A DNA stretch of 64,000 bases from Candidatus Sulfopaludibacter sp. SbA3 (GTDB lineage Bacteria > Acidobacteriota > Terriglobia > Bryobacterales > Bryobacteraceae), in the NCBI GenBank assembly GCA_945890485.1, contig CAMDCN010000008.1:1-64000 (forward strand). Reading direction: 5' to 3'. Below the pieces are notes generated by a model. It did no database searches, had not been told where the DNA came from, and was given only the letters and a program-made list of their open reading frames with translations. A program made the translations under genes and the position numbers. Position 1 is the stretch's first letter; each line of letters starts with the position of its first letter. Positions 7,477 through 52,309 of the stretch are shown one piece after another.

Positions 7477-7610
7477 CCAGGCCAATTGCGCGCCCGCACG
7501 AACAGGGACCGGATCAAAACCGCATCAAGACTCCATCTGAGGCCAACAAAAGGCTTAGAGACTCAGTTCTGGGCAGGTGGCCCAACTTGTTGAAACGCAA
7601 GAAGAACGTA

Positions 7611-7691: not shown

Positions 7692-7786
7692 CCAGGAATC
7701 GCTGTACCGCATTGATTCCATGTGGTTTAGTCGGTAACCCATCCAAAGTGCTGCGACCGGCAGACTCATTGCTTCTTGAGGCATCT

Positions 7787-7843
7787 CCGGGTTATCGCCT
7801 GGGACCCGGCGCAGGATAGAATCTTCTCATCGTAATCCTGCGC
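7787..7843. repeat. Two adjacent inverted repeats downstream of the methyltransferase
   Basis: GCGCAGGAT (7809-7817) and ATCCTGCGC (7835-7843) form a perfect 9-bp inverted repeat with a 17-nt loop. CCGGGT/ACCCGG (7787-7792 and 7804-7809) forms a second hairpin beside it. They lie just past the minus-strand methyltransferase stop and could end its transcript, but neither is followed by a T run, so a factor-independent terminator is not demonstrated. Confidence 0.4.
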
Positions 7844-7856
7844 GGTTGGGGACGGG

Positions 7857-10942: not shown

Positions 10943-10948
10943 GAAGCG

Positions 10949-13267: not shown

Positions 13268-13278
13268 AGGAAGACGTC

Positions 13279-31856: not shown

Positions 31857-31860
31857 TCTT

Positions 31861-37298: not shown

Positions 37299-37308
37299 GC
37301 GGGGCTGG

Positions 37309-37935
37309 ATGAGAAACGCGCTGGACCGGATCGTTTGTCTCGGCGGGTTGGTTGTGTTGGCGCCTTTGCTGGCGGTGATTGCGGTGCTGGTGCGCTGCGG
37401 GGATGGCGGTCCCATCTTGTTCCGGCAGGAACGGATTGGGCGCTGGGGCCGGCCGTTCGAACTGCTGAAATTTCGTTCGATGCGGACGAGCAACGAGGGC
37501 CCTGCCATTACGGCGGCCGGGGACAGCCGGATTACAAAGATCGGCCATAGATTGCGGAAGTACAAGCTCGATGAGTTGCCGCAGTTGTGGAATGTGGTGC
37601 GGGGAGACATGAGTTTGGTTGGTCCGCGGCCGGAAGTGAGCCGATACGTCAACCCGGTCGATACGGTTTGGCAACGGGTGCTGAGCGTACGGCCAGGAAT
37701 CACCGACCTCGCGACCCTGGTCTATCGCAACGAAGAAGAAGTACTCGGTGGAGCGGACGACTCGGAACGTCTCTACCGCGATGTCGTGCTGCCCGAGAAA
37801 CTTCGGCTCAACATCAGCTACCTGGAGCGCTCCACCCCCTTGCGGGACTTAAAGCTGATTCTGTTGACCATCCGCTACAGCATGTTTCCCGTTAGTTTTG
37901 AGCCGGAAGTTGTGAAGAAGAGATTAGTCGCCTAG
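37309..37935 (+). CDS. Short polyprenol-phosphate sugar-1-phosphate transferase
   Basis: The 208-residue protein corresponds to the catalytic domain only (PglC-like architecture). An N-terminal re-entrant helix LDRIVCLGGLVVLAPLLAVI is followed by FELLKFRSMRT, YKLDELPQLWNVVRGDMSLV and RPGITDLATLVYRNEEEVLG. It begins the lipid-linked repeat unit of system B. It lacks the multi-span N-terminal half found in the system A paralogue. ATG 37309 follows the kinase stop by 10 bp; in-frame ATG codons at 37252-37273 would overlap the kinase gene. Confidence 0.86.
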   Translation: MRNALDRIVCLGGLVVLAPLLAVIAVLVRCGDGGPILFRQERIGRWGRPFELLKFRSMRTSNEGPAITAAGDSRITKIGHRLRKYKLDELPQLWNVVRGDMSLVGPRPEVSRYVNPVDTVWQRVLSVRPGITDLATLVYRNEEEVLGGADDSERLYRDVVLPEKLRLNISYLERSTPLRDLKLILLTIRYSMFPVSFEPEVVKKRLVA

Positions 37936-37944
37936 GTGAGCCAG

Positions 37945-39171
37945 ATGAGTAAATCTCCGTACATTCCCTTTAATCTGCCCGAGATCGGCGAAGAAGAGAT
38001 CACCGCTGTAGTTGAGACGATGCGATCAGGGTGGTTGACCACCGGCGCCCGGACCGCAGCCTTCGAGACTAACTTCCAAGCGTACACCGGGGCGAAGTAT
38101 GCCCTGGCCCTAAACTCCTGCACGGCGGCTCTGCACGTGGCGCTTGTAGCGCTCGGTATTGGGCCGGGAGACGAAGTGATTACTACGCCTCTAACGTTCT
38201 GCTCGACGGTTCATGCCATCGTCCATACGGGTGCGTCCCCGGTGCTGGCGGATGTGGATGACGCCGGGAATCTGGATCCGGAGTCGGTCGCCGCCAGGAT
38301 CACACCGAGGACAAAGGCGTTGCTGCCGGTTCACCTCGCGGGCCTGCCGTGCCGTATGGACGAACTTTGGGAACTGGCCAGGCGTCATCGACTCTTCGTG
38401 GTGGAGGACGCCGCGCACGCGGTGGGGACCCACTACAGGCGACACCATTTGGGGGCAGAGGGTGCATCGCAGAGCGATGCTGTCGCTTACAGTTTCTATG
38501 CCACCAAGAATCTAACGACCGGCGAAGGCGGGATGGTCACGACAAACCGCGAAGAGTTATTTCTTCGCATGAAGTGCCTGGCACTGCACGGTATCAATCG
38601 TGACGCATGGAATCGATATGCCGAGAAGGGCTCGTGGTTCTATCAGGTTTTGGAGCCGGGATTTAAGTACAACCTGAGCGACCTGCAATCCGCCATCGGC
38701 TTACAACAATTGCGGAAGATCGAGCGGTTCACCGAACGTCGGCGAGAGCTGGCGGGGCGCTATCAACGCGCGTTCTCGGCGATACCAGAGCTCGAGTGCC
38801 CGCCGGAGGCCAGCGAAGGACGGCATGCTTGGCACCTATATATCCTTCGCCTGCGGGTCGACCAATTGAGGATCGGGCGAGATGCCTTTCTTGTCGAACT
38901 GAGAGAGCGGGGCATCGGGATCAGTGTTCACTTCATTCCCGTGCCGCTGCATCCGGTCTACCAGGATTTGGGCGTTTCGTATCCCTGCCCTCGGGCCATT
39001 GCAATGTATGAGCGGATGTTCTCTTTACCCCTGTACCCGGCGATGACGGATGAGCAGGTGGAACGGGTCATCTTCGCGGTAAGCGAGATCGTCCGCGAAC
39101 ATCGCGTTAGCGTGGGTGCGGTGGTGGCGACCGCGCAAGCTTCGGCTGCCGCGCTGGCCAGTGGCCAGTAG
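37945..39171 (+). CDS. DegT/DnrJ/EryC1-family sugar aminotransferase
   Basis: The 408-residue PLP enzyme shows LNSCTAALHVALVALGIGPG, VVEDAAHAVGTHY and the Schiff-base Lys in SFYATKNLTTGEGGM (about residue 193). It should convert a UDP-keto-sugar to an amino sugar. With the WbpM/PglF-type dehydratase encoded next, the most likely substrate is UDP-4-keto-6-deoxy-GlcNAc, as in LegC/PglE (inference). Its C-terminal 30 residues are Ala/Val-rich and appear extra. GTG 37936 is an alternative start. Confidence 0.88.
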   Translation: MSKSPYIPFNLPEIGEEEITAVVETMRSGWLTTGARTAAFETNFQAYTGAKYALALNSCTAALHVALVALGIGPGDEVITTPLTFCSTVHAIVHTGASPVLADVDDAGNLDPESVAARITPRTKALLPVHLAGLPCRMDELWELARRHRLFVVEDAAHAVGTHYRRHHLGAEGASQSDAVAYSFYATKNLTTGEGGMVTTNREELFLRMKCLALHGINRDAWNRYAEKGSWFYQVLEPGFKYNLSDLQSAIGLQQLRKIERFTERRRELAGRYQRAFSAIPELECPPEASEGRHAWHLYILRLRVDQLRIGRDAFLVELRERGIGISVHFIPVPLHPVYQDLGVSYPCPRAIAMYERMFSLPLYPAMTDEQVERVIFAVSEIVREHRVSVGAVVATAQASAAALASGQ

Positions 39172-39205
39172 CTCTGTGCCAGTTGGAGTAGGGGAGATTC
39201 CAGCA

Positions 39206-41125
39206 ATGAAGAAGAATAGAACGCTTCAATTCCTTCTCTATCACCGCCAGTTTCTAATCGCGCTGTTACACGGCATGCTCATCGTGCTTTCGATGATGTT
39301 TGCTTTCCTGTTGCGGTTCGAGTATTCGGTGCCCAGGGAACTGCTGCCGATCCTGACCGCGGCACTGTGGCTTGCGCTACTTGTGAAACTGCCCGTATTT
39401 CTTCTCCGGCGGCACGACAAAGGCTGGTGGCGCTACTCCGGAATTGTCGACTTGCAGAAGCTGTTCGTGACCAATGTTCTGGCATCTCTCAGCTTTGCGA
39501 TTGTCGCCACGTTGGCGATCGGGGCGAGCTTTCCCCGCTCAATTTTCTGTATCGACTTTCTTTTGTGTTTTCTGGCCACGGCCGGGTTGCGGTTTTCGGT
39601 TCGGGTATACCGCGAAAGTGTGGCGCAGGAGTTCCACGCCAAAGGCTCGGCTAAGGGCTTGCTAATTTACGGGGCCGGCCAGGCAGGCTTGAGCATTGCT
39701 AAAGAGATTCGGTCGAACCCGTCGCTAGGCTATCACGTGATTGGCTTTCTGGATGATTCCTTTTCCAAGCGAGGTGCCACGCTCGGCGGCGCGGCCGTCC
39801 TGGGTACGGGGCGTGAGGCGGCGCTGATCGTCGATATGGCGCGCAAATCGAATCGTCCAGTCGCCGAGATTCTGATTGCGATGCCGTCCGCCGGGGCGGA
39901 ACAGATGCGAGAGGCCGTGGCGAACTGCCGCGCTGCCGCCGTGCCGTTCAAGACGATTCCTGGCGTCGGCGAGATGTTGACAGGCAAGGTTCTCACGAGT
40001 CAGATTCGAGAGGTGTCCGTGATCGATCTGCTGGGCCGCGACCCGGTGGAGCTTGACGAGGCGTTGATCCAGGAGCAGTTGCAGGGCCGCGCGGTTCTGG
40101 TCACCGGAGCCGGCGGTTCGATTGGGTCGGAGATTTGCCGGCAGGTCGCAGGCTACAACCCACGCCGGTTGGTGTTGCTGGACCAAGCTGAAAGTGATCT
40201 CTTTCGCATTCATTTAGAGCTATTGGAACGCTTGCCTGAGGACCGGTTGGTTCCGGCGGTGGCAGACATCTGCGACCCGCAGAGATTGGACGAGATTATC
40301 AGCCATCAGCGGGTAGATGTAATCTTGCACGCGGCGGCCTATAAACACGTTCCGATGATGGAGTGCCATCTCTTTGAAGCGGTTCGGAACAACGTGCTCG
40401 GCACTCATAATCTGGTGGAGGCGGCAACCCGAAATGGTGTGTCGCGATTCCTGATGATCTCCTCCGACAAGGCTGTGAATCCCACCAATATCATGGGGTT
40501 GACCAAGCGGGTTGCCGAACTGATTATCACTTCAATGCCCGCCCACACGGGCCGTACGGAATATGTGGCCGTGCGGTTTGGCAACGTTCTCGGCAGCAAC
40601 GGCAGTGTCATTCCACTGTTCCGGAAACAGATTGCGACGGGGGGGCCGATCACCGTGACCCATCCGGATATGCAGCGATACTTCATGACGATCCCCGAGG
40701 CCGTGCAGTTGGTATTGCAGGCCTCCGTGATGGGGAAGGGGACTGAGATTTTCGTGCTCGACATGGGTGCGCCCGTAAAGATTCTCGATCTGGCGCAGAA
40801 CATGGCACGATTGTCCGGAAAGACCCCTGGCGTGGATATTGAAATCCGTTTCACCGGCTTGCGTCCGGGCGAGAAGCTATACGAAGAGCTGTCGGCTGAG
40901 GGCGAGGACTTCCAGCCGACGCACCATAACAAGATCAAAATCTATTGCGGGCCGCGTTTGGGACGTACGCGGATGCGCGACTGGGTTGAGCATGTCCGCC
41001 GAGCGATCGAGGTCCGTGACGAGGTTCAGTTGCTGAGCCTGCTCAAGGAAATTGTGCCCGAGTACCAACCTTCCGGACGATACCGTGAAATTCTGGCCGA
41101 CGTCCGCCAGGGTCATCCCGCTTAA
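39206..41125 (+). CDS. Membrane-bound UDP-GlcNAc 4,6-dehydratase (WbpM/PglF/FlaA1-like)
   Basis: The 639-residue protein has four N-terminal membrane helices (about 11-130), a first Rossmann region with GAGQAGLSIAKEI, and a second NAD-binding SDR domain (VTGAGGSIGSEICRQV, about 300-316). The family catalytic stretch is SSDKAVNPTNIMGLTKR, where Met takes the place of the usual SDR Tyr, as is normal in large WbpM-type enzymes. The HPDMQRYFMTIPEA motif is also present. It produces the 4-keto-6-deoxy intermediate for amino sugars. ATG 39206 has GGGGAG upstream. Confidence 0.88.
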   Translation: MKKNRTLQFLLYHRQFLIALLHGMLIVLSMMFAFLLRFEYSVPRELLPILTAALWLALLVKLPVFLLRRHDKGWWRYSGIVDLQKLFVTNVLASLSFAIVATLAIGASFPRSIFCIDFLLCFLATAGLRFSVRVYRESVAQEFHAKGSAKGLLIYGAGQAGLSIAKEIRSNPSLGYHVIGFLDDSFSKRGATLGGAAVLGTGREAALIVDMARKSNRPVAEILIAMPSAGAEQMREAVANCRAAAVPFKTIPGVGEMLTGKVLTSQIREVSVIDLLGRDPVELDEALIQEQLQGRAVLVTGAGGSIGSEICRQVAGYNPRRLVLLDQAESDLFRIHLELLERLPEDRLVPAVADICDPQRLDEIISHQRVDVILHAAAYKHVPMMECHLFEAVRNNVLGTHNLVEAATRNGVSRFLMISSDKAVNPTNIMGLTKRVAELIITSMPAHTGRTEYVAVRFGNVLGSNGSVIPLFRKQIATGGPITVTHPDMQRYFMTIPEAVQLVLQASVMGKGTEIFVLDMGAPVKILDLAQNMARLSGKTPGVDIEIRFTGLRPGEKLYEELSAEGEDFQPTHHNKIKIYCGPRLGRTRMRDWVEHVRRAIEVRDEVQLLSLLKEIVPEYQPSGRYREILADVRQGHPA

Positions 41126-41137
41126 GGAGATATCAAG

Positions 41138-41977
41138 TTGAGCGCAGCTACTAATCCTCTTCCCATTCTTCGGATTGCTCCGAGCAAAGGATGGGTCTCT
41201 CTTCAACTGAAAGAGCTCTTTGCTTACCGCGAGCTGCTCTACTTCTTGATCTGGCGCGACATAAAGGTCCGGTACAAGCAGACGGCCCTGGGCGCAGCAT
41301 GGGCCATCATTCAACCCTTTTTCACAATGCTGGTGTTTAGTCTGTTCTTTGGCAAATTGGCGAAGATTCAGTCTGACGGTCTGCCTTACCCGGTATTCGC
41401 TTACGCAGCCTTGGTGCCTTGGACGTTCTTTGCACAGGGCCTGAGCCAAGCGTCGGATAGCTTGGTGGGCAGCGCCAATCTGATTCGAAAGGTCTATTTC
41501 CCACGACTGGCGATCCCCGTGGGCACGGTTGCCAGCGGCGTTGTGGACTTCATGCTCGCCTTCTTCGTCCTGCTGTTGCTGATGCTCTACTACGGAGTTA
41601 CGCCGACCTGGAACATCGTCTGGCTGCCGCTCCTGCTGGTTCTCGCGCTGATTACCGCCTTGGGTGTTGGGCTTTGGCTTTCTGCCTTGAACGTCAAATT
41701 TCGGGACGTGAAGTACGTCGTGCCATTCATCACGCAATTCTGGATGTTTGCCACCCCTATCGCCTACCCCAGTAGCTTGCTGCCGGCGGAGTGGCGGCCG
41801 GTGTATGCATTGAACCCAATGGTGGGCGTTGTTGAGGGCTTCCGGTGGGCGCTTCTGGGTACGGACACGGCTCCGGGGCCTATGTTGCTGGTCTCGGCGA
41901 CCGTGGCAGTGCTGCTCCTGGTGGGCGGGGCCTTTGTGTTCCGGCGCATGGAAAAGAGTTTTGCTGACGTGGTCTAA
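41138..41977 (+). CDS. wzm: ABC-2 type polysaccharide transporter permease (Wzm-like)
   Basis: The 279-residue inner-membrane protein has six hydrophobic segments and the Wzm/TagG/RfbA pattern: FAYRELLYFLIWRDIKVRYK near the start, LGAAWAIIQPFFTMLVF, VFAYAALVPWTFFAQGL and FWMFATPIAYPSSLLP. It forms the channel of an ABC exporter for undecaprenyl-linked glycan. AAGGAGA lies seven bases before a TTG start. The matching ATPase gene lies about 12 kb downstream (54077), an unusual separation. Confidence 0.9.
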   Translation: MSAATNPLPILRIAPSKGWVSLQLKELFAYRELLYFLIWRDIKVRYKQTALGAAWAIIQPFFTMLVFSLFFGKLAKIQSDGLPYPVFAYAALVPWTFFAQGLSQASDSLVGSANLIRKVYFPRLAIPVGTVASGVVDFMLAFFVLLLLMLYYGVTPTWNIVWLPLLLVLALITALGVGLWLSALNVKFRDVKYVVPFITQFWMFATPIAYPSSLLPAEWRPVYALNPMVGVVEGFRWALLGTDTAPGPMLLVSATVAVLLLVGGAFVFRRMEKSFADVV

Positions 41978-41989
41978 GGCGGTGATTCT

Positions 41990-43036
41990 GTGAACAGTCA
42001 AGCACCCTGTCTCATCATGGCCGAGGTCGCCCAAGCTCACGACGGCAGCCTGGGCACGGCCCATGCATACATCGATGCTGCCGCCAAGGCTGGCGTCGAC
42101 GCCATCAAGTTCCAGACCCACTACGCCGATGCTGAGAGTTCCAGTTATGAAACTTGGCGCGTTCGCTTCAGCCGGCAGGACGCCACGCGCTACGACTACT
42201 GGCAAAGAATGGAGTTTTCTGAATCGCAGTGGCGGGAACTGCGAGACCACGCAGTTAGCAAGGGCTTACGCTTCCTGAGTTCGCCCTTTTCCAAGCGGGC
42301 GGTGGAAGTTCTTCGAAGGGTTGGCGTAGACGCTTGGAAGGTGGCTTCGGGCGAGGTGAACAATCCGCAGTTGTTCCAATTGATGGCCGATTCTGGACTG
42401 CCCATCTACGTTTCAACCGGACTGAGTTCCTGGCAGGAGATCGATGGCGTCGTGGAGCGCTTGGAGCGGCACCGGCTGCAGTATGTGCTGCTCCAGTGCA
42501 CTTCGGTCTATCCATGTCCACCTGAAAAGGTTGGCATCAATGTGCTGCCTGAGTTTCGCCGGCGCTACGGCTGTCCGGTTGGTCTGTCGGACCATTCGGG
42601 GACCATCTATCCTTCGCTGGCTGCCGTGACAATGGGAGCCGAACTGCTGGAAGTGCACGTCACGTTCAGCAGGGAGTGCTTTGGCCCGGATGTGCAGAGT
42701 TCGTTGACTACGACTGAGCTTCGACAACTCGTGGAGGGAGTGCGCTTCGTGGAAACGATGGTAGCGAATCCGGTGGACAAGGACCAAGCCTGCCAAGAAT
42801 TGCAGACCGTTCGAAACCTTTTCACGAAGAGCATTGTGGCGGAGGCGGATCTTCCCGCGGGAACAGTATTGAACGATTGGCACCTGGGCCTGCGCAAGCC
42901 GGGCACCGGACTTCCGGCTGAGCAGTTGGTCCATGTGGTTGGCCGGCGCCTGCTCCGGTCCGTGACTCGGGGCCAGTTCCTGGCTGAAGAGGATTTTGTC
43001 TCGCCTTTGGTGCGGGAGTTACAGGGGCAATCATGA
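41990..43036 (+). CDS. NeuB-family nonulosonic acid synthase
   Basis: The 348-residue protein aligns with sialic/legionaminic acid synthases. It has MAEVAQAHDGSLGTAHAYID at the N-terminus, DAIKFQTH (about residue 37), WKVASGEVNNPQLF, LLQCTSVYP, GLSDHSG and EVHVTFSRECFGPD. A C-terminal SAF/antifreeze-like domain follows (IVAEADLPAGTVLNDWHLGL, about 282-345). It condenses phosphoenolpyruvate with a ManNAc-type six-carbon sugar to give a nine-carbon acid. The N-terminal nHnG segment is altered to AHDG. The exact substrate cannot be decided; partners suggest a legionaminic-type sugar. Confidence 0.88.
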   Translation: MNSQAPCLIMAEVAQAHDGSLGTAHAYIDAAAKAGVDAIKFQTHYADAESSSYETWRVRFSRQDATRYDYWQRMEFSESQWRELRDHAVSKGLRFLSSPFSKRAVEVLRRVGVDAWKVASGEVNNPQLFQLMADSGLPIYVSTGLSSWQEIDGVVERLERHRLQYVLLQCTSVYPCPPEKVGINVLPEFRRRYGCPVGLSDHSGTIYPSLAAVTMGAELLEVHVTFSRECFGPDVQSSLTTTELRQLVEGVRFVETMVANPVDKDQACQELQTVRNLFTKSIVAEADLPAGTVLNDWHLGLRKPGTGLPAEQLVHVVGRRLLRSVTRGQFLAEEDFVSPLVRELQGQS

Positions 43037-44232
43037 GCTGTTCGTGCACAATTGCGGAGTTCTCGGCGATGGCCGTAGGGCAGGAGGCGTCGCTTTCCCG
43101 GGTGATTGAAGTGGCCGACGTGGACGCCTTTGCAAAGCTGAGCGGCGATTTCAATCCGTTGCACATGGAGGATGGCTTCGCCCGCCAGACAAGCTTCCAG
43201 CGAAGAGTAGTGCACGGCATGCTGGTGGGAAGTTATGTCTCGACACTGATCGGGATGCACCTTCCTGGACCCGGCGCACTCTGGGCCGAGCAGCGGTTTC
43301 AATGGCGGGCTCCGGTGTTTATTGGCGACACGGTGAACATGCGGATGCGGATCGTCCACAAGTCCGAGGGGACGCGAACGATTGCGGTGGAAGTCACTGC
43401 GACGAACCAACACGGGAGCATCATTATGGAAGGCAACGGTACGGTGAAGTTGTTGGCGGTTCGGCAAGAGGATCGCGAGGTTCCCCTGGCGGAGCGCGTG
43501 GCCTTGGTCACAGGCGGCGCCCAAGGGGTTGGCGCGGCGGTGGCGGCGGCGCTCGCGGAATCCGGGGCGGCGGTGGTCGTCAACTATCGGACATCCAGCG
43601 AATCGGCCAGGGACCTTTGTGAGCAGGTTCAGCAGATGGGCGGGCGGGCGATGGCATTTTGCGCCGATGTCACCGATTCGGTTGCGGTGAACGAGATGCT
43701 GGCGGCGGCCGAGGAGGAGTTCGGGCGGCCAGTTGATGTTCTGGTTAACAATGCTGCCGGCCGGCTAGTGCCGCGTGAGTTTTCTCGCCTGCAATGGGGT
43801 GACGTCGAGGCAGCCTTCGCGATGCAACTGAAAGCCGCGTTTACTTGCACGCAGGCCGTGCTTCCTGGCATGGTGGCGCGAAGGTCGGGCGTGATTGTAA
43901 ACATCGGTTCGGCGATCACATGGGACGTGCCACCCGCGCAGTCGGCAGGAGCGGCGATGGCCAAGGCGGCCATCAAGGCGATGACGAAATCGGTAGCGCA
44001 GGAGCTAGGACCCTCGGGCGTACGGGTAAACATGGTTTCGCCCGGATTGACGGAAACGACCGCTCTGGCGGAGGTGCCCGAGCGATTGCGAAAGCTGCAG
44101 GCGATGCAGACGCCGTTGCGACGATTGGCGGCTCCGGAGGACATTGCGGCGGTCGTGACCTTTTTGTGTTCGAGTGCAAGTCGTCACATGACTGGCGTCG
44201 ATGTGCCAGTGTGTGGTGGCGTGCACATGTAG
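43033..44232 (+). CDS. Fusion of MaoC-like hydratase and short-chain dehydrogenase
   Basis: The 399-residue protein has two domains. Residues about 1-150 form a MaoC/(R)-specific enoyl-hydratase hot-dog with the catalytic motif LSGDFNPLHMEDGFARQTSF. Residues about 155-399 form an SDR with VTGGAQGVGAAVAAALAESG, VLVNNAAG and a terminal GVDVPVCGG. In the SDR the usual YxxxK reads AAMAK, so the catalytic Tyr is replaced by Ala while the Lys and upstream Ser remain. Such fusions handle 3-hydroxyacyl/enoyl thioesters, and an ACP gene lies nearby. It overlaps NeuB by 4 bp. Confidence 0.83.
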   Translation: MSCSCTIAEFSAMAVGQEASLSRVIEVADVDAFAKLSGDFNPLHMEDGFARQTSFQRRVVHGMLVGSYVSTLIGMHLPGPGALWAEQRFQWRAPVFIGDTVNMRMRIVHKSEGTRTIAVEVTATNQHGSIIMEGNGTVKLLAVRQEDREVPLAERVALVTGGAQGVGAAVAAALAESGAAVVVNYRTSSESARDLCEQVQQMGGRAMAFCADVTDSVAVNEMLAAAEEEFGRPVDVLVNNAAGRLVPREFSRLQWGDVEAAFAMQLKAAFTCTQAVLPGMVARRSGVIVNIGSAITWDVPPAQSAGAAMAKAAIKAMTKSVAQELGPSGVRVNMVSPGLTETTALAEVPERLRKLQAMQTPLRRLAAPEDIAAVVTFLCSSASRHMTGVDVPVCGGVHM

Positions 44233-44242
44233 GGAGGCAGGA

Positions 44243-46129
44243 ATGCAGCGGATGCGTGAGGCCATCAACGAGGCAATTGAGGCAGGGCGGTACGGTGAAG
44301 CTCGTTCGGCGGTGGAGATGTTGTGGAAGGGGCAGCCAACCGGCGCGGTTGCTAACTATGTGCTGAGTTGCATTCCTCGGTGGCGGCAAACGATTCCCGG
44401 TAAGCCATGGCGGGTGTACTTTCTGCGCTCATTCACCCTTGAACCCATGGTGCCGTTGTTGCGGGCAGGCGGGGGGTTGGAAGGCCTGGATCTGACGGTG
44501 GGCGTGGGGGCGCTGGGTGCTTATATGCAGGAGGTCCTCTCCGCGGACAGCCCGTTGTACCGCTTTCAGCCGGACTCGGTGATTGTTGCCATACAGACTC
44601 GAGACATCGCGCCTTCCCTGTGGGAAAACGGGGTCCCGGGATCAGCCTTGGCGGCCGTGGCCGAGGATGTTCTGGATCAGTATTCCAAGCTGATTCAGGC
44701 TCTCCGAAGTTATAGCCAGGCCGATATCATTCTTCATACTCTCGAAGAACCAGTTCATCCCAGCTTTGGCGTGTTCGACGCTCAGTGTACGGATGGGCAG
44801 GCGGCGGCGGTGCAGGAGATCAACCAGGGTCTGCGGCGGTTAGCGGGTCAATGGTCAGGGGTGTATCTGCTGGACTACGATCGTCTCGTAGCCGCGCATG
44901 GCCGCCAGAACTGGCACGACGAGAGAAAGTGGCTTCTCGTCCGGCTCCCGATTCGTGCCGAATATCAGTACCTTATGGCGAATGAGTGGCTACGGTACCT
45001 GGTGCCGCTTGCCGGCAGGGGAGCCAAGGTGCTGGTGTCGGACCTGGACAATACTCTCTGGGGCGGCGTGCTGGGTGAGGATGGCAGCGATGGCATTCAA
45101 ATCGGCTTGGAGCATCCCGGCGCGCACTACCGCGCGTTGCAGCAAACATTGGCGGACCTATCGCGGCGGGGAATTCTGTTGGCGCTCTGCAGCAAAAACG
45201 AGGAATCCGAGGCGCTTGCCGCGATCAATCGACACCCCGGAATGCTGTTGCGTAGCACGGCATTCGCCGCGACTCGCATTAACTGGACGAACAAAGCGCA
45301 GAACTTGCGGGAGATCGCGCAAGAGCTGAATGTAGGCCTCGATGCGTTGGCCTTCGTCGATGACAGTCCTGTCGAGTGCGAGCGGGTTCGGCGAGAGCTG
45401 CCAGAGGTCACGGTGATTGAACTACCGCCGGAACCGGCGGCCTACGCGGCGGCTGTTCGTAGGCACCCTTCCTTTGAGCGACTCGCGCTTAGCAAAGAGG
45501 ATAGTGCGCGCGGAGACATCTACTGCGCCCAGCGGCAGCGTGCCTCTGCCCAGAGCGAGTCTGCATCCGTTGAAGAATTCTATGACTCGCTGCGCCAGGA
45601 ATTGGAGATGTCGCTCGTGGAGCCTGTCCACGAACTGCGCGTCGCGCAGTTGACGCAGAAAACGAATCAATTCAATTTGACGGGTCGACGCTACAGCGAA
45701 CTGCAGATCCACGACCTCGCCCGCCGAAAAGATACAAGCGTCCTTCAGGCCTCCGTTAGGGACCGCTTCGGCGACAACGGCATCGTGGGGGTGATCATTC
45801 TTCGTCACTCCGGCGACGTTGGCGAGATCGACACAATGTTAATGAGTTGCCGGGTGATTGGTCGAACTGTCGAGACCGCCATGTTGGCGCTCCTCCTGCA
45901 ATATAGTCGCGAACTCGGGTTGCAATGGCTGGAAGGCCGGTTCGTTCCGACCTCGAAGAATCGACCCGCCAAGGACTTCTTTTCCGACCATCAGTTTGAA
46001 CTTGTGGAGTCGGATGAGGGTGGCTCCCGTTGGCGGTTGAATGTGGAGCGAAATTCGTTGGACTGTCCGCGGTGGATCTACGGATTGCTTAGGAAGGACG
46101 GTGTTCTCGGTGAATCTCTTGCCTCTTGA
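44243..46129 (+). CDS. FkbH-like HAD-IIIC enzyme
   Basis: The 628-residue protein has an N-terminal alpha/beta region, a HAD-IIIC domain with the DxD nucleophile in VLVSDLDNTLWGGVLGEDG (about residues 263-281), LCSKNEESEAL and FVDDSPVECERVR, and a C-terminal GNAT-like part beginning LTQKTNQFNLTGRRYSEL. FkbH family enzymes load a glyceryl unit from 1,3-bisphosphoglycerate onto an ACP and remove the phosphate. The ACP gene follows immediately. AGGGAGG precedes ATG 44243. The acyl group here is inferred only. Confidence 0.88.
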   Translation: MQRMREAINEAIEAGRYGEARSAVEMLWKGQPTGAVANYVLSCIPRWRQTIPGKPWRVYFLRSFTLEPMVPLLRAGGGLEGLDLTVGVGALGAYMQEVLSADSPLYRFQPDSVIVAIQTRDIAPSLWENGVPGSALAAVAEDVLDQYSKLIQALRSYSQADIILHTLEEPVHPSFGVFDAQCTDGQAAAVQEINQGLRRLAGQWSGVYLLDYDRLVAAHGRQNWHDERKWLLVRLPIRAEYQYLMANEWLRYLVPLAGRGAKVLVSDLDNTLWGGVLGEDGSDGIQIGLEHPGAHYRALQQTLADLSRRGILLALCSKNEESEALAAINRHPGMLLRSTAFAATRINWTNKAQNLREIAQELNVGLDALAFVDDSPVECERVRRELPEVTVIELPPEPAAYAAAVRRHPSFERLALSKEDSARGDIYCAQRQRASAQSESASVEEFYDSLRQELEMSLVEPVHELRVAQLTQKTNQFNLTGRRYSELQIHDLARRKDTSVLQASVRDRFGDNGIVGVIILRHSGDVGEIDTMLMSCRVIGRTVETAMLALLLQYSRELGLQWLEGRFVPTSKNRPAKDFFSDHQFELVESDEGGSRWRLNVERNSLDCPRWIYGLLRKDGVLGESLAS

Positions 46130-46154
46130 TCTAGCACTCCAGACGGAGCCCCTC

Positions 46155-46418
46155 ATGCTCATCGACCGAGTCCGCATGATCGCATCGGACGTATTTGCTG
46201 TCCCCTTCGACGGACTTACCCCGACCAGCTCTCCGGATTCCGTGGACTCCTGGGATTCGCTGAACCATCTCAATATGGTCCTCGCCTTGGAGCAGGAACT
46301 GAACATCCAGTTTTCTCCCGAAGAGATGGAGGAGCTCCTATCCATAGAACTGATCGTGGCACTGGTGGAGGAGAAGTTGAGCATGAACGGTACCAACCCC
46401 GGGGGAGATAGACGATGA
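46155..46418 (+). CDS. Acyl carrier protein
   Basis: The 87-residue acidic helical protein has the phosphopantetheine attachment site VDSWDSLNHL with Ser at about residue 35, and IQFSPEEMEELLSIELIVAL as helix 3-4. It lies just after the FkbH-like gene and overlaps the GNAT gene by 4 bp, so it is almost certainly the dedicated carrier of this module. A GTG start at 46110, preceded by AGGAAGGA, would add 15 residues and overlap the FkbH gene; ATG 46155 gives the standard ACP length. Confidence 0.88.
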   Translation: MLIDRVRMIASDVFAVPFDGLTPTSSPDSVDSWDSLNHLNMVLALEQELNIQFSPEEMEELLSIELIVALVEEKLSMNGTNPGGDRR

Positions 46419-47581
46419 GTGTTGAATTTCGATATGCCGGCCTTGAGGAATATCCGCAAATCAGCCAGTTTCTGAATGAATACTGGGCGGAAAACCACAT
46501 TTACTGCAGGCGGGAGGACCTCTATCAGTGGTCGTTCGGCCGCGTTCGGCCGCGTCAGAACGATGCGGTGGGTGGGCCAAGCAGCATGGCCGTTGCGGAA
46601 CACGATGGCGAACTGGTTGGAATCTTGGGCGGTATACCGTTTACGTTCAATCATTTCGGTGAAAGCAAGCGGGGAGTGTGGATCACCAATTACGTGATTC
46701 GGCCTGATCACCGAAAGGGATCCACCGCATTGCAACTACTTAGTATGTTCCGCGGAAACACAGGTCGAGGGGAACATGACTACGACATTACCGTGGCCTT
46801 CGGGATCAACCCGGCGACCGCCACCATCTACAAGGTGTTGCGAGGCGAGGTGTTGGCCGACATTCCACGGCAACTGCTCGTGTTTCCCGGTGCCGTAAGC
46901 CGGATGGCCCATCTGCTCACCATCACCCGCCCGGAATGGGAGGTGGAGCGTCGAGAGGCACTCGCCGCGGCCTTCGAACTGCCGGCAATGCCCGAGGCGC
47001 CCGGCGGTGAACCGGTTCCGTTGAACTTAGACGCTTGGGACGATGAAAACTGGTCGATCATCGCTAAAGAGACCTTGGGCGCCGCTCGCGATGCTGCGTT
47101 CTTACGTTGGCGCTACTTTGACCACCCGTTGTTCGACTATCGAGTTGTTACGGCAGCCGAAGGCCGCCGCACGGGCCTTGCGATTTGGCGGCTCGAAACC
47201 ATCTACCAGAAGACTGAGGAAGGGCGGGCGCCAGTGGATAAAATCGCCCGCCTGGTTGAGTTCCTTCCTGCATCCGATGAGAACGCCAAGCAACTCATCT
47301 CCAGCTTTCTCGTTCAGGCTGGGGAGGCCGGCGCCTTGGCTGCGGACTACTACGGATACCATGGCCGATACGGAAAGCTGCTCGAAGCCTGTGGGATGAA
47401 ACGAGTGTCGTCGGTCCCGGATGGGGAGTTTCTGCCCACCCGGTTTCAGCCGCTCGATGGCAAGGGCGGGGGCATCATGAGCGCCATGCTGGTTCAGTTC
47501 GCCAAGCCCGCCTGTTTCGCTGATGCCGAGTGCCCTTGGTACTGGACCAAGGCTGATTCCGACCAGGATCGTCCCAACTAA
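46415..47581 (+). CDS. GNAT-type acyltransferase
   Basis: The 388-residue protein carries a GNAT-like fold in its first half (AEHDGELVGILGGIPFTF, then WITNYVIRPDHRKGSTALQL with the acyl-CoA/phosphopantetheine loop). The second half holds a related fold containing AAFLRWRYFDHPLFDYRVV. It is coupled to the ACP gene by ATGA and is the natural candidate to transfer the ACP-bound acyl group to an amino sugar. Two-lobed GNATs of this size are known in glycan clusters. The acceptor is inferred. Confidence 0.75.
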   Translation: MSVEFRYAGLEEYPQISQFLNEYWAENHIYCRREDLYQWSFGRVRPRQNDAVGGPSSMAVAEHDGELVGILGGIPFTFNHFGESKRGVWITNYVIRPDHRKGSTALQLLSMFRGNTGRGEHDYDITVAFGINPATATIYKVLRGEVLADIPRQLLVFPGAVSRMAHLLTITRPEWEVERREALAAAFELPAMPEAPGGEPVPLNLDAWDDENWSIIAKETLGAARDAAFLRWRYFDHPLFDYRVVTAAEGRRTGLAIWRLETIYQKTEEGRAPVDKIARLVEFLPASDENAKQLISSFLVQAGEAGALAADYYGYHGRYGKLLEACGMKRVSSVPDGEFLPTRFQPLDGKGGGIMSAMLVQFAKPACFADAECPWYWTKADSDQDRPN

Positions 47582-47591
47582 GGAGGCACGG

Positions 47592-48515
47592 ATGGATCAA
47601 CCGACACTGACCGTTGTGATGTACCACTATGTGCGGGACGCGAGCCGCAATCCGTTCCCCGGCTTGAAATCCATGGACCTGGATGCGTTCAACCGGCAGG
47701 TGAGCGAATTGCGAAGCCGCTATGAGATGGCAACTTTGGAATCTGCTTTGGCACTTCTGGAGGGTAAGTATCAGGCGCGCCGCCCCCTCTGCCTGTTGAC
47801 GTTTGACGACGGAGTCAAAGATCACTATCAGGACGTGACCCCGGTGCTTGCTGAACGCGGGATACAAGGCCTGTTTTTTCTTGTCACCGGTTGCATAGAG
47901 GAAGGAGCCGTGGCGGCAGTGCACAAGAATCACTTCCTTTCGGCCAGCCTTGGTTTCGACGAATGGCGGCGGCGCTTTTTTGATCGGGCGCAAGCGTCGG
48001 GCCTTGCAATGCCCACGGTGGATTGGGCGGCGGCTAGCCGGACCTATGCTTGGGATACGCCAGAGGTTGCGGCGTTCAAGTATGCGTTTAACTTTCAAAT
48101 GCCGCCTGCCGCGAGGGACCAGTTGGTGGATGAACTATTTGCCGAAGAATTCGGCGACGAAGTCGCCTTTGCCCGGCAGTTGTATGTCAGTTGGGAGGAG
48201 GCGCGCCAAATGCAGATCGATGGCATGATCCTGGGCGGCCACACTCATCGGCACCACCCGCTCGCCTCGTTGACCGGGCCACAGATGAAGAGCGACCTGG
48301 ACGAGTGCCGTCGGATTCTCGACCTCCGTTTGCGGCCCCAGTTTCAAACTCCCTTCAGCTATCCATACGGGAAGCGCGACTCATTCACCGCGGAAGCGGT
48401 GCATCGCTTGCATGAGTTGGGCTTCTGCTGCGCGTTCAGTACGGAAGTGGGGCGGAACCAAGCCGGAGCCGACTGCTTTGCACTCCAACGAGTCGACTGC
48501 AAGCAGGCTGCGTGA
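47592..48515 (+). CDS. Polysaccharide deacetylase (NodB homology)
   Basis: The 307-residue protein begins PTLTVVMYHYVRD and has the metal/base Asp pair in LLTFDDGVKDHY (about residues 68-79), the His pair in GGHTHRHHPL (about 216), and FSYPYGKRDSF (about 256) in place of the RxPY motif. A long insertion lies between the first and second motifs. No signal peptide. AGGAGG sits six bases before ATG 47592. It may remove an acetyl group from a nonulosonate precursor or the lipid-linked glycan of system B. Confidence 0.83.
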   Translation: MDQPTLTVVMYHYVRDASRNPFPGLKSMDLDAFNRQVSELRSRYEMATLESALALLEGKYQARRPLCLLTFDDGVKDHYQDVTPVLAERGIQGLFFLVTGCIEEGAVAAVHKNHFLSASLGFDEWRRRFFDRAQASGLAMPTVDWAAASRTYAWDTPEVAAFKYAFNFQMPPAARDQLVDELFAEEFGDEVAFARQLYVSWEEARQMQIDGMILGGHTHRHHPLASLTGPQMKSDLDECRRILDLRLRPQFQTPFSYPYGKRDSFTAEAVHRLHELGFCCAFSTEVGRNQAGADCFALQRVDCKQAA

Positions 48516-48540: not shown

Positions 48541-49767
48541 ATGCTAATGCAACGAAGAAGAGTCTGTGTCGTGTTGGTTGATCGGGCCAACTACGGCCGA
48601 CTGAAACCGGTGATGACCGCTATAGCGGAGCGGCCTGAATTGGAGATGGTAGTCATCGCGGCAGGCACCATGGTGCTCGAACGCTTCGGCTACCCGGCGG
48701 AGATTGTCCGCAACGATGGGTTCCCCGTAGACGGCGAAATTCATATCGAGCTGGAGGGTTCAAAACCTTCGACGATGGCTAAGTCGGTCGGATTCGGTGT
48801 GGTGGAGTTCGCTAGCGAGTTTCAACGCCTTCGGCCAGACCTCGTGCTGTTGATTGGTGATCGCTATGAGGCGTTGTCCGCGGCGATCGCGGCTGCGTAT
48901 ATGAATATCTGCATCGTTCATATTCAGGGCGGCGAAGTTTCCGGTTCTATTGACGAGAGCGCGCGTCATGCCATCAGCAAGCTGTCGCATTTCCACTTCC
49001 CGAGCACCATACGCTCGGCTGAATATCTTGTCCGTATGGGCGAGCGGCCCGAATGCGTTCTCGGTGTTGGATGTCCCGGTAGCGATATTGCTCGGGAGAT
49101 GGATCGCTCCATCAGCGCGGACATTTTGAATGCCTCAGGCAGCGGCGCCCTGATCGATACAGAGAAGCCGTTTCTGTTGGTCATCTTTCATCCCACCACC
49201 ACGCGCTTCGGCGGCGAATTGCGGCAGATGAGCGAACTGCTCGAGGCGCTTCGCACGATTGCGATGCCCACTGTACTGCTCTGGCCAAACATCGACGCCG
49301 GGAGTGAACAGATTAGCAAAGCCATTCGCGTTTTCCGCGACCAAGCCGCACCAACCTGGCTCCGCACCATCACCAATCTAATGCCGGAAGAGTATCTCGC
49401 GGTGTTGAGCCGGGCCGCTTGTGCCGTTGGCAACTCCAGTAGTTTCGTTCGCGACGCCGGGTATTTCGGCACGCCTGTGGTTCTTGTTGGAGAACGGCAG
49501 GAAGGACGAGAAACGGACGAACACGTGGTTCATTCGGCGCCGTTGGCGGACGAACTGTCCCACTTGATCCGGCGGCAACTGGCTCATGATCGCTATGCCG
49601 CCAGCCGTCTGTATGGTGATGGCCGGGTCTCCCGGCGGATTGCCGAAGCGCTTGTAACACTTACCCCTTTCGTGCAGAAACGCCTCCACTACATCTATGA
49701 GGTGCAGCCGGGGGCACATACGACTCCGGCTCCGGCCGGAAGTGTGGCTGTTGGCGGTAGCCACTAG
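48541..49767 (+). CDS. UDP-GlcNAc 2-epimerase, hydrolysing (NeuC-like)
   Basis: The 408-residue GT-B-like epimerase has LLIGDRYEALSAAIAAAYMN, VHIQGGEVSGSIDESARHAI, VGCPGSDIARE, HPTTTRFG and a late AVGNSSSFVRDAGYFGTPVV. The combination is characteristic of NeuC/LegG, which hydrolyse UDP and invert C2 to give free ManNAc-type sugars. The usual N-terminal TGTRAEYG is altered to VDRANYGRLKP. It would feed the NeuB-like synthase encoded at 41990. AGGAAG precedes the ATG. Confidence 0.86.
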   Translation: MLMQRRRVCVVLVDRANYGRLKPVMTAIAERPELEMVVIAAGTMVLERFGYPAEIVRNDGFPVDGEIHIELEGSKPSTMAKSVGFGVVEFASEFQRLRPDLVLLIGDRYEALSAAIAAAYMNICIVHIQGGEVSGSIDESARHAISKLSHFHFPSTIRSAEYLVRMGERPECVLGVGCPGSDIAREMDRSISADILNASGSGALIDTEKPFLLVIFHPTTTRFGGELRQMSELLEALRTIAMPTVLLWPNIDAGSEQISKAIRVFRDQAAPTWLRTITNLMPEEYLAVLSRAACAVGNSSSFVRDAGYFGTPVVLVGERQEGRETDEHVVHSAPLADELSHLIRRQLAHDRYAASRLYGDGRVSRRIAEALVTLTPFVQKRLHYIYEVQPGAHTTPAPAGSVAVGGSH

Positions 49768-49786
49768 AGATATCGGAGGAATATTT

Positions 49787-50632
49787 GTGACCGACCAGAA
49801 CACTCAAACATTTTCAGTCGTGATCCGGGTCCGCAACGCGGCCGAATATATGGAGAAAGTCCTGGATGCCTTTGCGCTCCAATCGGTGCAACCGAATGAG
49901 ATCGTGGTGGTGGATAACGAGTCCACCGACGGGACCCGCGAGATCGCTTCCCGATACGGCGCATTGGTGCTTTCGATTTCCAAGAAGGAGTTCACCTATG
50001 GGCGAGCCCTAAATATGGGGATCCAGAAGTGCACGGGCAAGATTGTGTTTTTCATCAGCGCACATAGCCTGGTGCTCGGCAGAGAGTTCTTTCGAACCGC
50101 GATCGCCGAGTTTACCAATCCCGAGGTAGCGGCCGTCCGTTGTACCACCGTCAGCAAGACACGCGATCTGGAATCGTGGATGCAGCAGAAAGTGCTGCGC
50201 TGGCCGTTGGACCTCTACACGATTGTTGAGAATGGACCCATTGCCAGCGGATGCGCGATTCGGCGCAGTCTGTGGGAGGAGGTGCCGTTCGACGAAACTC
50301 TAGAGGCCGTCGAGGACAAGCTCTGGGCCCGCGAGGTAATGAAGCGAGGCTATATCGTTGTCAGTTCCGAGGCGATGTATCTTCATATGCGCCGCCGGGG
50401 TATGGTGGAGGCCATCCGCATCATGACCCGCGAGCGATTGGCAATTCGCCGGAGTACTGGCGAGATTTGGCCTTTGCCGCGACCCACGCTGCCAAAGCTG
50501 TTGAAGGCTCTCGTGATCAGCGCTCCGCGCGCCGCGTTCATGTTGGCAGCGCGCGAGATCTTGATCTACTGCTACATCAAAAGTATTCCGTTCCAAGCAC
50601 GCACCAAGCCGAAAGTCGGTTCGATCGTATAG
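49787..50632 (+). CDS. GT2-family glycosyltransferase
   Basis: The 281-residue GT-A enzyme starts FSVVIRVRNAAEYMEKVLDA, then IVVVDNESTDGTREIASRYG, with conserved AEDKLWA-type acidic residues in AVEDKLWAREVM (about residue 175). A hydrophobic helix near the C-terminus may dock it to the membrane. CGGAGGA lies just before a GTG start at 49787. It stands between the NeuC- and NeuA-like genes and may transfer an early sugar of repeat unit B. Confidence 0.83.
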   Translation: MTDQNTQTFSVVIRVRNAAEYMEKVLDAFALQSVQPNEIVVVDNESTDGTREIASRYGALVLSISKKEFTYGRALNMGIQKCTGKIVFFISAHSLVLGREFFRTAIAEFTNPEVAAVRCTTVSKTRDLESWMQQKVLRWPLDLYTIVENGPIASGCAIRRSLWEEVPFDETLEAVEDKLWAREVMKRGYIVVSSEAMYLHMRRRGMVEAIRIMTRERLAIRRSTGEIWPLPRPTLPKLLKALVISAPRAAFMLAAREILIYCYIKSIPFQARTKPKVGSIV

Positions 50633-50646
50633 TTTGGAGCAGCCAC

Positions 50647-51381
50647 TTGCCACCAATTTCCGTATTGGGCATTGTGACCGCTCGGGGCGGTTCCAAAGGG
50701 ATTCCGCGCAAGAACCTGGCGCCCCTCTTGGGCCGGCCGCTACTGGCTTTCACCGCGGAGGCCGCACTCGGATCGCGGCGGCTGTCCCGCGTCGTGCTTT
50801 CAACCGACGACCAGGAGATTGCACAGGTAGGTGAGTCACTTGGCATGGCGGTTCCTGTGCTTCGTCCCCCGGAGCTTGCTAGAGACGAGACGCCGACAAT
50901 TCCGGTACTCCAACATATGGTTCGCTATCTCGAAGAGCGGGGCGAGTACTATGACGCGGTCCTGGTGTTGCAGCCAACCAACCCGTTGCGCCAGGCGGAG
51001 GATATCGACGGCGCAATCGAGTTGATGGAGCGGACGAATGCCGATTCCGTGATTTCGTTTTCTGCCGTCGGAGAGAAGCACCCCGCGCGTATGAAATCGA
51101 TAGGCGAAGACGGCTGGGTGGAAGATCCCCCCTTTTGCGAAGCATTCGAGGGGCAGCCTCGACAGCAACTTCCGCCCTTGTACTTGCGCGAGGGATCGAT
51201 CTATCTGACACGCCATGATGTGTTGATGGTGGAGAACTCGCTCAAAGGCACCCGTTGCCAGGCGTGGATCATGCCAGCCGACCGGTCCTGCAATGTAGAT
51301 GACCTTTTTGATCTTCGTCTGGTGGAATTCCTTCTCGCTGGAGCGAAAGAACATGCGAATTCTGGTAGCCGAGTCCGCTAA
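50647..51381 (+). CDS. CMP-nonulosonic acid cytidylyltransferase (NeuA-like)
   Basis: The 244-residue protein has the family P-loop-like motif VTARGGSKGIPRKNLAPLLG (about residues 9-28), STDDQEIA, LQPTNPLRQAEDIDGAIEL and REGSIYLTRHDVL. It activates a nonulosonic acid with CTP. The start is TTG with GGAG seven bases upstream; an open frame extends further upstream but lies inside the GT2 gene. It overlaps the next gene by 29 bp. Together with NeuB- and NeuC-like genes it completes a nonulosonate pathway. Confidence 0.87.
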   Translation: MPPISVLGIVTARGGSKGIPRKNLAPLLGRPLLAFTAEAALGSRRLSRVVLSTDDQEIAQVGESLGMAVPVLRPPELARDETPTIPVLQHMVRYLEERGEYYDAVLVLQPTNPLRQAEDIDGAIELMERTNADSVISFSAVGEKHPARMKSIGEDGWVEDPPFCEAFEGQPRQQLPPLYLREGSIYLTRHDVLMVENSLKGTRCQAWIMPADRSCNVDDLFDLRLVEFLLAGAKEHANSGSRVR

Positions 51382-52309
51382 CTTCTCACCCGCCGCGGCA
51401 CGGATCCTGGAAGGTGCCGCCACGGTGACATGGGCCGATGTGGACTCTCGATCTCTCCGGGACATCCTGCCAGGGCACGAACTGCTGTGGGTTAGGCTAC
51501 GCAGCCGGATTGACCAAAACATGCTCGCGGCAGCGCCAAAGTTGAGAGTGGTGGCGACACCAACGACCGGGCTGACACACATCGACTTGCAGGCCGCCAG
51601 AGAGAGGGGAATTGCCGTACTGAGCCTGCGCGGGGAGACTGACTTTCTCCGGACGGTACGAGCCACGGCGGAATTGACGATTGGCTTGATGTTGTCACTC
51701 CTGAGAAAGCTTCCGGTAGCAATGTCGCATGCTACTTCCGAAAAATGGGATCGCGATCAATTCCGCGGACGGGAACTGTTCGGAAGCACCGTTGGCCTGA
51801 TTGGTTTGGGCCGCCTGGGCCAACTGGTGGCTCGATACCTCGAAGGATTCGAGGCAAACGTGCTGGCCTACGATCCTTACGTCGATCGGTCGAAGCTGCC
51901 TTCCAACGTCCGGCTCTGCTCGCTCAACGAACTTCTTGTGCAGGCCGATCTGGTAAGTCTTCACGCTAGTCTCACGGAAGAAACAGAGGGGTTCTTTGGG
52001 GCCCCGCAGTTCGCGGCGATGCGCCCCGGTTCTTTGTTCGTTAATACGGCCCGTGGCGAATTGGTGGATGAGCCCGCTCTGTTGTCGGCACTGACAAATG
52101 GACCTTTGGCCGGGGCCGCTCTAGATGTGATCGCGAGCGAACACACCATGAGTCCGGGGCATCCTCTGCTAGAGTACGCGCGCCGGCAAAACAATCTATT
52201 GGTCACGCCACACATCGGCGGCTGCACCGTCAACTCAATGGAACGAACAGAAGTGTTCCTCGCCGGAAAAGTCTCTCGCTGGATCGACGAGCAGCGCGGC
52301 AGGCAATAA
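51353..52309 (+). CDS. D-isomer-specific 2-hydroxyacid dehydrogenase (SerA-like)
   Basis: The 318-residue protein has the NAD-binding GSTVGLIGLGRLGQLVARYL (about residues 142-161) and the catalytic trio in VNTARGELVDEPAL (Arg), the following Glu, and TPHIGGCT (His). It oxidises or reduces a 2-hydroxyacid. Its place between NeuA and the amidotransferase, not among amino acid genes, suggests a role in sugar or acyl-group synthesis, for example handling glycerate for the FkbH/ACP module (inference only). Confidence 0.85.
   Translation: MRILVAESANFSPAAARILEGAATVTWADVDSRSLRDILPGHELLWVRLRSRIDQNMLAAAPKLRVVATPTTGLTHIDLQAARERGIAVLSLRGETDFLRTVRATAELTIGLMLSLLRKLPVAMSHATSEKWDRDQFRGRELFGSTVGLIGLGRLGQLVARYLEGFEANVLAYDPYVDRSKLPSNVRLCSLNELLVQADLVSLHASLTEETEGFFGAPQFAAMRPGSLFVNTARGELVDEPALLSALTNGPLAGAALDVIASEHTMSPGHPLLEYARRQNNLLVTPHIGGCTVNSMERTEVFLAGKVSRWIDEQRGRQ

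Follow-up and report, generated by a model that had tools for sequence, protein, structure and literature searches.

A stretch of 64,000 nucleotides of contig CAMDCN010000008.1 from Candidatus Sulfopaludibacter sp. SbA3 (positions 1 to 64,000; hereafter the window) carries a polysaccharide locus in which genes for a nonulosonic (sialic-type) acid enclose a set of five genes. The products of these are a MaoC-SDR fusion (SDR, short-chain dehydrogenase/reductase), an FkbH-type HAD-IIIC protein, a stand-alone acyl carrier protein (ACP), a tandem-GNAT acyltransferase, and a NodB-type deacetylase. Our preferred reading, held with moderate confidence, is that the set forms an N-acyl exchange module inside the nonulosonic acid locus. 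The initial annotation had placed the first four genes between NeuB and NeuC/NeuA, and all four lie where it put them, on one strand; the fifth, the deacetylase gene between the GNAT gene and NeuC, was absent from it. Its recurrence with much the same gene order in 12 other genomes shows that the set is no chance reading.

From these genes we infer the chemical steps, the acyl group and the acceptor as follows. FkbH would load glyceryl from 1,3-bisphosphoglycerate onto the ACP, where MaoC may alter the bound acyl group, for example by removing water from glyceryl-ACP to give enol/pyruvoyl-ACP; the fused SDR would reduce nothing. The deacetylase would expose an amine, either of the nonulosonate itself or at the stage of its hexosamine precursor, and the tandem GNAT would move the ACP-borne acyl onto it. 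NeuA would then activate the modified sugar, and a Wzm/Wzt transporter would export polysaccharide containing it. It is the deacetylase that led us to choose exchange: a sole amine at C5, as in sialic acid, would need its acetyl group removed before a new acyl amide could be formed.

Conservation and association with nonulosonate genes

The genes themselves, their conservation, the intact motifs of FkbH, MaoC, ACP and deacetylase, and the missing tyrosine of the SDR half can be read directly from the sequence. A scan of 84,980 species genomes with two peptide patterns, which may miss relatives, gave 12 loci, all from Acidobacteriota, five of which were already among the 61 relatives discussed below. 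With the window this makes 13 loci, which are related to one another, and counts over them are not independent. The MaoC, ACP, GNAT and deacetylase genes are present in all 13 and the FkbH gene in 11 (not in L015 and L016). The genes neuB, neuC and neuA occur in all 12 informative loci, with at least 58% identity in 11 of these; in L023 they are divergent (approximately 33% identity) and placed elsewhere in the locus. L020, a 9.6-kb contig with no neuBCA, was left out of this count as uninformative; neuB is missing there from its usual position, as in L023, and in L018 it is cut by the contig end.

The same association is seen across the 61 relatives. The GNAT was found in six of them, the window's own genome counted, and the deacetylase (E values up to 1e-40) in exactly these six. 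A strong NeuB match, meaning E < 1e-60 by a threshold set after the list of matches was known, is present in 11 genomes, comprising all six with the GNAT and five of the 55 others (Fisher p = 8e-6, kinship ignored); weaker NeuB-family matches occur in 36 further genomes of the 61. The locus is an accessory one in the genus (5 of 19 genomes), where strong NeuB was found in 5/5 genomes with the GNAT and 0/14 without it (Fisher p = 9e-5, kinship ignored). An association with nonulosonate genes in related genomes had been named beforehand as a test of the annotation, and it is present. When the GNAT profile was run against 396 Acidobacteriota genomes, only the window's own genome gave a strong match, 24 others giving weak ones (E at least 1e-7, mostly to the C-terminal half). 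No GNAT relative was detected by tblastn in 72,556 plasmid records, nor was one encoded in any of 29 pattern-bearing stretches of viral contigs.

These counts also bear on a different and rather unlikely explanation, namely that the module acts on an O-position or on some other sugar in the exported polysaccharide, and has only export in common with the nonulosonate genes. The unit does stay in place in L023 despite the divergence and displacement of neuBCA, and elsewhere in Acidobacteriota there are FkbH-ACP units whose surroundings, as far as they were read, contain no nonulosonate genes; a deacetylase-profile match is present in 11 of 54 FkbH stretches. The presence of nonulosonate genes in every informative locus, and the coincidence of strong NeuB with the GNAT within the genus, argue against this explanation.

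Acyl supply

The FkbH protein passes TIGR01686 (Table 1), and the catalytic Asp/Asp/Ser/Lys/Asp/Asp residues of its HAD domain and the Cys of an SCR motif are conserved in all 11 orthologues. The ACP falls below all curated ACP cut-offs (best NF002148, E = 1.8e-6), and a Pfam search at E 0.001 gave no family for it. All 13 loci keep the Asp-Ser site at which a carrier protein bears phosphopantetheine.

FkbH genes were surveyed in the 396 Acidobacteriota genomes, where they occur at 55 places in 41 genomes, one of these being the window. Of the 54 other stretches, 36 have an ACP-profile match next to FkbH on the same strand, and one more has it on the other strand; carrier domains fused to FkbH were recognised by Pfam in L064, L065, L068 and L077. 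The window's own genome has a second FkbH (G000:C15:66421; L068 7930-9876), which has an ACP domain of its own fused to it and adjoins a 1021-residue protein. The FkbH-ACP acyl supply of the initial annotation is therefore kept, in view of the conserved residues, the adjoining ACP gene and the recurrence of FkbH-ACP pairs; the part that it gave to the SDR is not.

The MaoC-SDR fusion has two halves with different fates. The MaoC domain is well above the Pfam cut-off of 27 bits, and all 13 loci keep its catalytic residues D39, N41 and H44, so that its function, whatever it is, appears to be retained. The catalytic Tyr of the SDR half is absent from all 10 copies, its position being occupied by A, A, F, F, L, F, V, F, F and F, and Lys is kept in nine; in the PDB alignment of the window protein, Ala stands opposite the Tyr of SiaM. 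Further losses affect Lys (L019), Ser (L016 and L018) and two of the nucleotide-binding glycines (L023), and in three of the 13 loci (L013, L014 and L022) the protein stops after MaoC. Because the Tyr is missing throughout, reduction in cis is unlikely, and the SDR half is probably no working reductase here; we reject that role, and with it the earlier proposal that this half is an active acyl-thioester enzyme. The fold is still maintained, since dN/dS is approximately 0.08 against L012, a comparison in which synonymous sites are near saturation. Elsewhere, eight MaoC/SDR sets located close to FkbH genes have an intact YxxxK motif (Tyr read by eye); six of them are from Acidobacteriota (L066, L074, L079, L084, L090 and L098) and two are on alphaproteobacterial plasmids (L128 and L129).

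FkbH is lacking in two of 13 loci, so in some of them the acyl group may have a source other than glycerate. One could go further and suppose a short (R)-3-hydroxyacyl group, such as 3-hydroxybutyryl, which MaoC would make from an enoyl-ACP of fatty acid synthesis, FkbH being accessory or serving another acyl group. The conserved catalytic residues of MaoC, and the persistence of MaoC, ACP, GNAT and deacetylase without FkbH in L015 and L016, are consistent with this. We nevertheless consider it improbable, as FkbH is present in the other 11 loci with all its catalytic residues and directly before the ACP gene. It also precedes a second putative acyltransferase family, of approximately 370 residues (x373), in six other loci (L080, L086, L089, L121, L122 and L123), with an ACP recognised between the two in four and a MaoC-profile match in none.

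Acyl transfer and the acceptor sugar

The GNAT passes PF00583 narrowly and does not pass PF13527 (20.5 against a cut-off of 25 bits), and its sequence gave no significant match in the PDB. An AlphaFold model built from the 13 sequences (pLDDT 83.4, pTM 0.86) predicts a tandem GNAT. In a Foldseek search with this model the top matches were N-myristoyltransferases (E = 3e-12, TM approximately 0.55, 13% identity), and a GCN5-related acetyltransferase, 2ozg, ranked 36th. The last eight residues, DSDQDRPN, are identical in 13/13 loci. Three different stop codons come after them, a pattern suggestive of selection acting on the end of the protein. N-myristoyltransferase uses its own C-terminal carboxylate as the base, and by analogy the C-terminal DSDQDRPN may act in the same way. 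A clue to the acyl donor comes from L077, in which a single open frame reads FkbH-ACP-KS-AT-KR-ACP-GNAT; its GNAT matches the profile of the window GNAT (E = 3e-5 among all open reading frames, 3e-8 when searched alone), suggesting that this type of GNAT can accept acyl groups from an ACP.

The deacetylase passes PF01522, and the motifs TFDDG (TFDDA in L023) and GHxHxH are present in 13/13 loci. Where the initial annotation allowed N- or O-acylation, the deacetylase and the N-myristoyltransferase-like fold of the GNAT would favour N-acylation over O-acylation.

NeuB, NeuC and NeuA all pass their Pfam cut-offs, NeuC alone passing among the NCBIfam equivalogs. The legionaminic models are far below cut-off (LegB 32.9 against 475 bits, LegC 225.8 against 420), and the pseudaminic models are below it as well (PseB 184 against 407.75, PseC 371.9 against 423.5, PseI 205.4 against 340.25). 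The best PDB match of NeuC is human GNE (239.6 bits, versus 173.7 for the diacetylbacillosamine epimerase) and that of NeuB is SiaC (169.3 bits, versus 137 for pseudaminic acid synthase), rankings that depend on which enzymes have solved structures and do not settle the sugar type. The legionaminic-type product proposed earlier finds no support in the scores of LegB and LegC, and among solved structures NeuB and NeuC are closest to sialic-acid enzymes. A more specific proposal, which we regard as doubtful, is that of a new sialic acid: the deacetylase would strip the N-acetyl group from a sugar of neuraminic type, pyruvoyl- or glyceryl-ACP would come from FkbH and MaoC while the reductase is off, and the N-myristoyltransferase-like tandem GNAT, with its invariant tail at the active site, would install the acyl group.

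The GNAT might instead be the missing 4-N-acyltransferase of a bacillosamine- or legionaminic-type pathway (the PglD or LegH step), with the phosphoglycosyltransferase (PGT), DegT and CapD making a UDP-4-amino-6-deoxy sugar. This reading, possible although somewhat unlikely, has the same FkbH-ACP supply as the exchange module and another acceptor, and needs no acetyl removal. The three genes do lie directly upstream (37252, 37936 and 39116, respectively), Pfam scans of 20 window proteins showed no PglD-like acyltransferase, and within the genus DegT (E values up to 1e-90) occurs only in the 5/19 genomes that bear the GNAT. In genome G235 a stretch with FkbH, an acyltransferase and a deacetylase has a DegT gene and, further along, CapD and Wzm homologues. 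Yet the deacetylase, conserved in 13/13 loci, is left without a role, the scores for LegB and LegC fall far short of the cut-offs, and DegT homologues (57-58% identity) are found also in G030 and G035, both of which lack strong NeuB and the GNAT. It should be noted that the readings overlap and that their probabilities do not sum to one.

Several observations weigh against the exchange module in the nonulosonate locus. The clusters of L015 and L016 keep the other parts without FkbH; each of the two genomes has one more distant FkbH elsewhere, in one case approximately 20 kb off on the same contig. In the 396 genomes only 4 of the 55 FkbH genes (the window's counted) have a strong NeuB at a distance of 10 kb or less, and two genomes of the same genus, without strong NeuB, have an FkbH-ACP unit with another partner. 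FkbH with a deacetylase match at most 1.3 kb away on the same strand recurs in the phylum, in 11 of the 54 other stretches (L086, L102, L103, L106-L112 and L117), and none of these 11 has a NeuB match. The pairing is therefore not special to nonulosonates, and these stretches, possibly N-acyl exchange sets outside nonulosonate loci, weaken the nonulosonate as a necessary acceptor, yet support the logic of exchange. The DegT and CapD genes, finally, could point to a 4-amino sugar as the acceptor used by the GNAT.

Locus layout, related units and known systems

The locus lies in a 7.1-Mb genome (35 contigs) and resembles one for an ABC-exported polysaccharide. All genes listed are on the plus strand, from PGT to NeuA and on, in the same locus, through the 2-hydroxyacid dehydrogenase and AsnB to Wzt (Table 1); the names Wzm, Wzt and AsnB are tentative and follow sequence resemblance. 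Overlaps of four bases join neuB to the MaoC-SDR gene and the ACP gene to the GNAT gene, and the likely start of the deacetylase gene is 11 bases past the GNAT stop. The D-2-hydroxyacid dehydrogenase is kept in 11 of 13 loci. Genes for S-adenosylmethionine-dependent methyltransferases are found downstream (56849-57673 and 61927-63384); O-methylation of the acyl group or of the sugar by their products is possible, compare the dimethylglyceroyl group of Campylobacter jejuni. Upstream of the polysaccharide locus, positions 31660-34008 encode a protein with Ig-like repeats of the HYDIN/ASPM-SPD-2 type.

Table 1. Genes of the polysaccharide locus in the window, and members of the x373 family in other loci (positions within the locus named)
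Feature	Position	Strand	Evidence
Small initiating phosphoglycosyltransferase (PGT)	37252-37935	+	PF02397 180.2 bits
DegT sugar aminotransferase	37936-39171	+	PF01041 407.8 bits; best PDB match ArnB
CapD/PglF-type UDP-sugar 4,6-dehydratase	39116-41125	+	PF02719 387.1 bits
Wzm-type ABC exporter permease	41138-41977	+	Orthologue directly before neuB or MaoC gene in 11/13 loci
NeuB-family nonulosonate synthase	41990-43036	+	PF03102 218.3 bits; TIGR03569 290.4 bits, below cut-off 399.65; nearest solved structure SiaC/NeuB
MaoC-SDR fusion	43033-44232	+	MaoC approximately 43033-43449, PF01575 73.9 bits; SDR approximately 43486-44229, PF13561 173.8 bits
FkbH-type HAD-IIIC protein	44243 (likely start)-46129; reading frame open from 44201	+	TIGR01686 293.4 bits, cut-off 146.65
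Stand-alone ACP	46110 (GTG) or 46155 (ATG) to 46418	+	NF002148 27.7 bits, cut-off 71; Asp-Ser site
Tandem-GNAT acyltransferase	46415-47581	+	PF00583 21.6 bits, cut-off 20.7; AlphaFold model pLDDT 83.4
NodB-type polysaccharide/amino-sugar N-deacetylase	47592-48515	+	PF01522 69.2 bits, cut-off 23.1
NeuC-type hydrolysing UDP-GlcNAc 2-epimerase	48541-49767; reading frame open from 48412	+	TIGR03568 342.6 bits, cut-off 235.9
Glycosyltransferase family 2 (GT2)	49697-50632	+	PF00535 68.8 bits
NeuA/PseF-type cytidylyltransferase	50251-51381; domain from about residue 136 of open frame	+	PF02348 77.1 bits; PseF 129.9 bits, below cut-off 205.7
D-2-hydroxyacid dehydrogenase	51299-52309	+	Best PDB matches D-3-phosphoglycerate dehydrogenases
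AsnB-type amidotransferase	52320-54080	+	Homologues in other loci
Wzt-type ABC exporter ATPase	53948-55351	+	Orthologue in 12/13 loci
x373 family	L080 4526-5647; L089 3259-4386; L086 4363-5496; L121 6207-7316; L122 3364-4473; L123 4024-5253		

Among the 54 other FkbH stretches, MaoC matches are found in six, NeuB matches in three and a match to the window-GNAT profile in one. Combinations of FkbH and ACP with nonulosonate genes in other architectures count in favour of the exchange reading. Genomes G303 and G359 (L064 and L065) have neuB-neuC-neuA and AsnB beside FkbH-ACP-thioesterase proteins; fusions of this type were seen at L064 10456-13434, L065 11204-14197 and, on a planctomycete plasmid, L130 8935-11946. 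In G088 and G433 (L066 and L098) pseudaminic operons enclose MaoC-SDR, FkbH and ACP genes, with PseC and PseG over cut-off in both and PseB in G433. PseG carries a C-terminal formyltransferase-like domain in these loci (L098 3-1718 and L066 4778-6760), which suggests N-formyl pseudaminic acid. In a tree of FkbH, branch supports left aside, the window type clusters with L080 and L089, and L064/L065 and L066/L098 are placed on other branches; the separate placement of these nonulosonate-linked types suggests that the association of FkbH with nonulosonate genes arose more than once.

The x373 family has no match in Pfam or NCBIfam, and two of its six loci are in the genus of the window, in genomes without strong NeuB. 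Its members share a similar C-terminal tail (R-G/A-D-G-D-G-x-P...). A direct profile comparison did not support homology to the GNAT (probability 0.3%). Only the L077 GNAT links the two families (88% and 97%, in pairwise comparisons with no background set), a lead by which x373 is perhaps another tandem GNAT.

FkbH also matches 82 plasmid records (E values up to 1e-30), six of which were examined. Plasmid NZ_CP021332.1 of Maritalea myrionectae (L129) has pseB, Antibiotic_NAT-FkbH, MaoC-SDR-ACP, DUF4910/DUF2172/HTH_47 and NeuB in one stretch (4408-14721). In the other five FkbH comes with an ACP, as a gene or as a domain, and the settings are polyketide, polysaccharide, MBOAT, WcbI or methyltransferase ones, with no annotated NeuB in the part displayed, where annotation is incomplete.

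In the Nod factor system a deacetylase (NodB), a dedicated ACP (NodF) and an N-acyltransferase (NodA) swap an N-acetyl group for an ACP-borne acyl group. Unlike the nonulosonate setting of the window, the substrate there is a chito-oligosaccharide and the group a fatty acyl. The loading module of bryostatin BryA has FkbH, DH- and KR-type (dehydratase- and ketoreductase-type) domains and an ACP, and takes glyceryl through pyruvyl to lactyl, a course for which a literature search gave no confirmation; in contrast to this KR-type domain, the KR-like SDR of the window is without its Tyr, and reduction in cis is unlikely there. The glyceryl-ACP units of tetronate and methoxymalonate polyketides, with the FkbH-like Mad7/Mad8 and Mad14/Mad12, were partly rebuilt in vitro, according to the excerpted text of PMC4979870. 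There a FabH-like enzyme or polyketide synthase receives the acyl group, whereas in the window it would go to a GNAT and a sugar.

Closer chemically are the acylated nonulosonates. For Pse5Am7Gra (N-glyceroyl pseudaminic acid) of Tannerella forsythia, the genes for the glyceroyl group are described as elusive in the excerpted text of PMC6120980 and PMC6388019; the sugar bears a glyceroyl amide, and its gene cluster, like the window locus, includes an AsnB protein. The flagellar locus of C. jejuni NCTC 11168 contains an FkbH-domain gene, cj1302 (PMC7099621, in part). Cj1295, a protein with an aminopeptidase-like domain, is needed there for dimethylglyceroyl-pseudaminate, and its authors hypothesised that the C5 acetamido group is cleaved so that methylglyceroyl replaces it (PMC3068675, in part). 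The di-O-methylglyceroyl-pseudaminic acid system of C. jejuni thus resembles the window in having an FkbH-domain gene in a nonulosonate locus together with a proposed acetyl-removing hydrolase. It differs in that the hydrolase is aminopeptidase-like rather than NodB-type, and cj1302 is not linked to the acyl group in the excerpts of PMC7099621. Among the matches listed in the open-access literature, this was the only paper to join FkbH and nonulosonate terms, merely noting the gene in the text excerpted.

As in the window, the Maritalea plasmid brings FkbH, MaoC, SDR, ACP, an N-acyltransferase domain and NeuB together, and it adds a DUF4910 protein. Cj1295 is presumably a DUF4910 protein as well. 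The Maritalea locus differs from the window in its fusions, in the families of its acyltransferase and hydrolase, and in an intact SDR Tyr, which suggests one functional set assembled from different protein families; the window has kept, in its MaoC-SDR fusion, the reductase half as a fold whose catalytic Tyr is gone. Chemical work has shown that bacterial nonulosonates can bear N-glyceroyl and methylglyceroyl groups, and the window and Maritalea loci now give candidate genes for them: FkbH, carrier, N-deacylase and acyltransferase.

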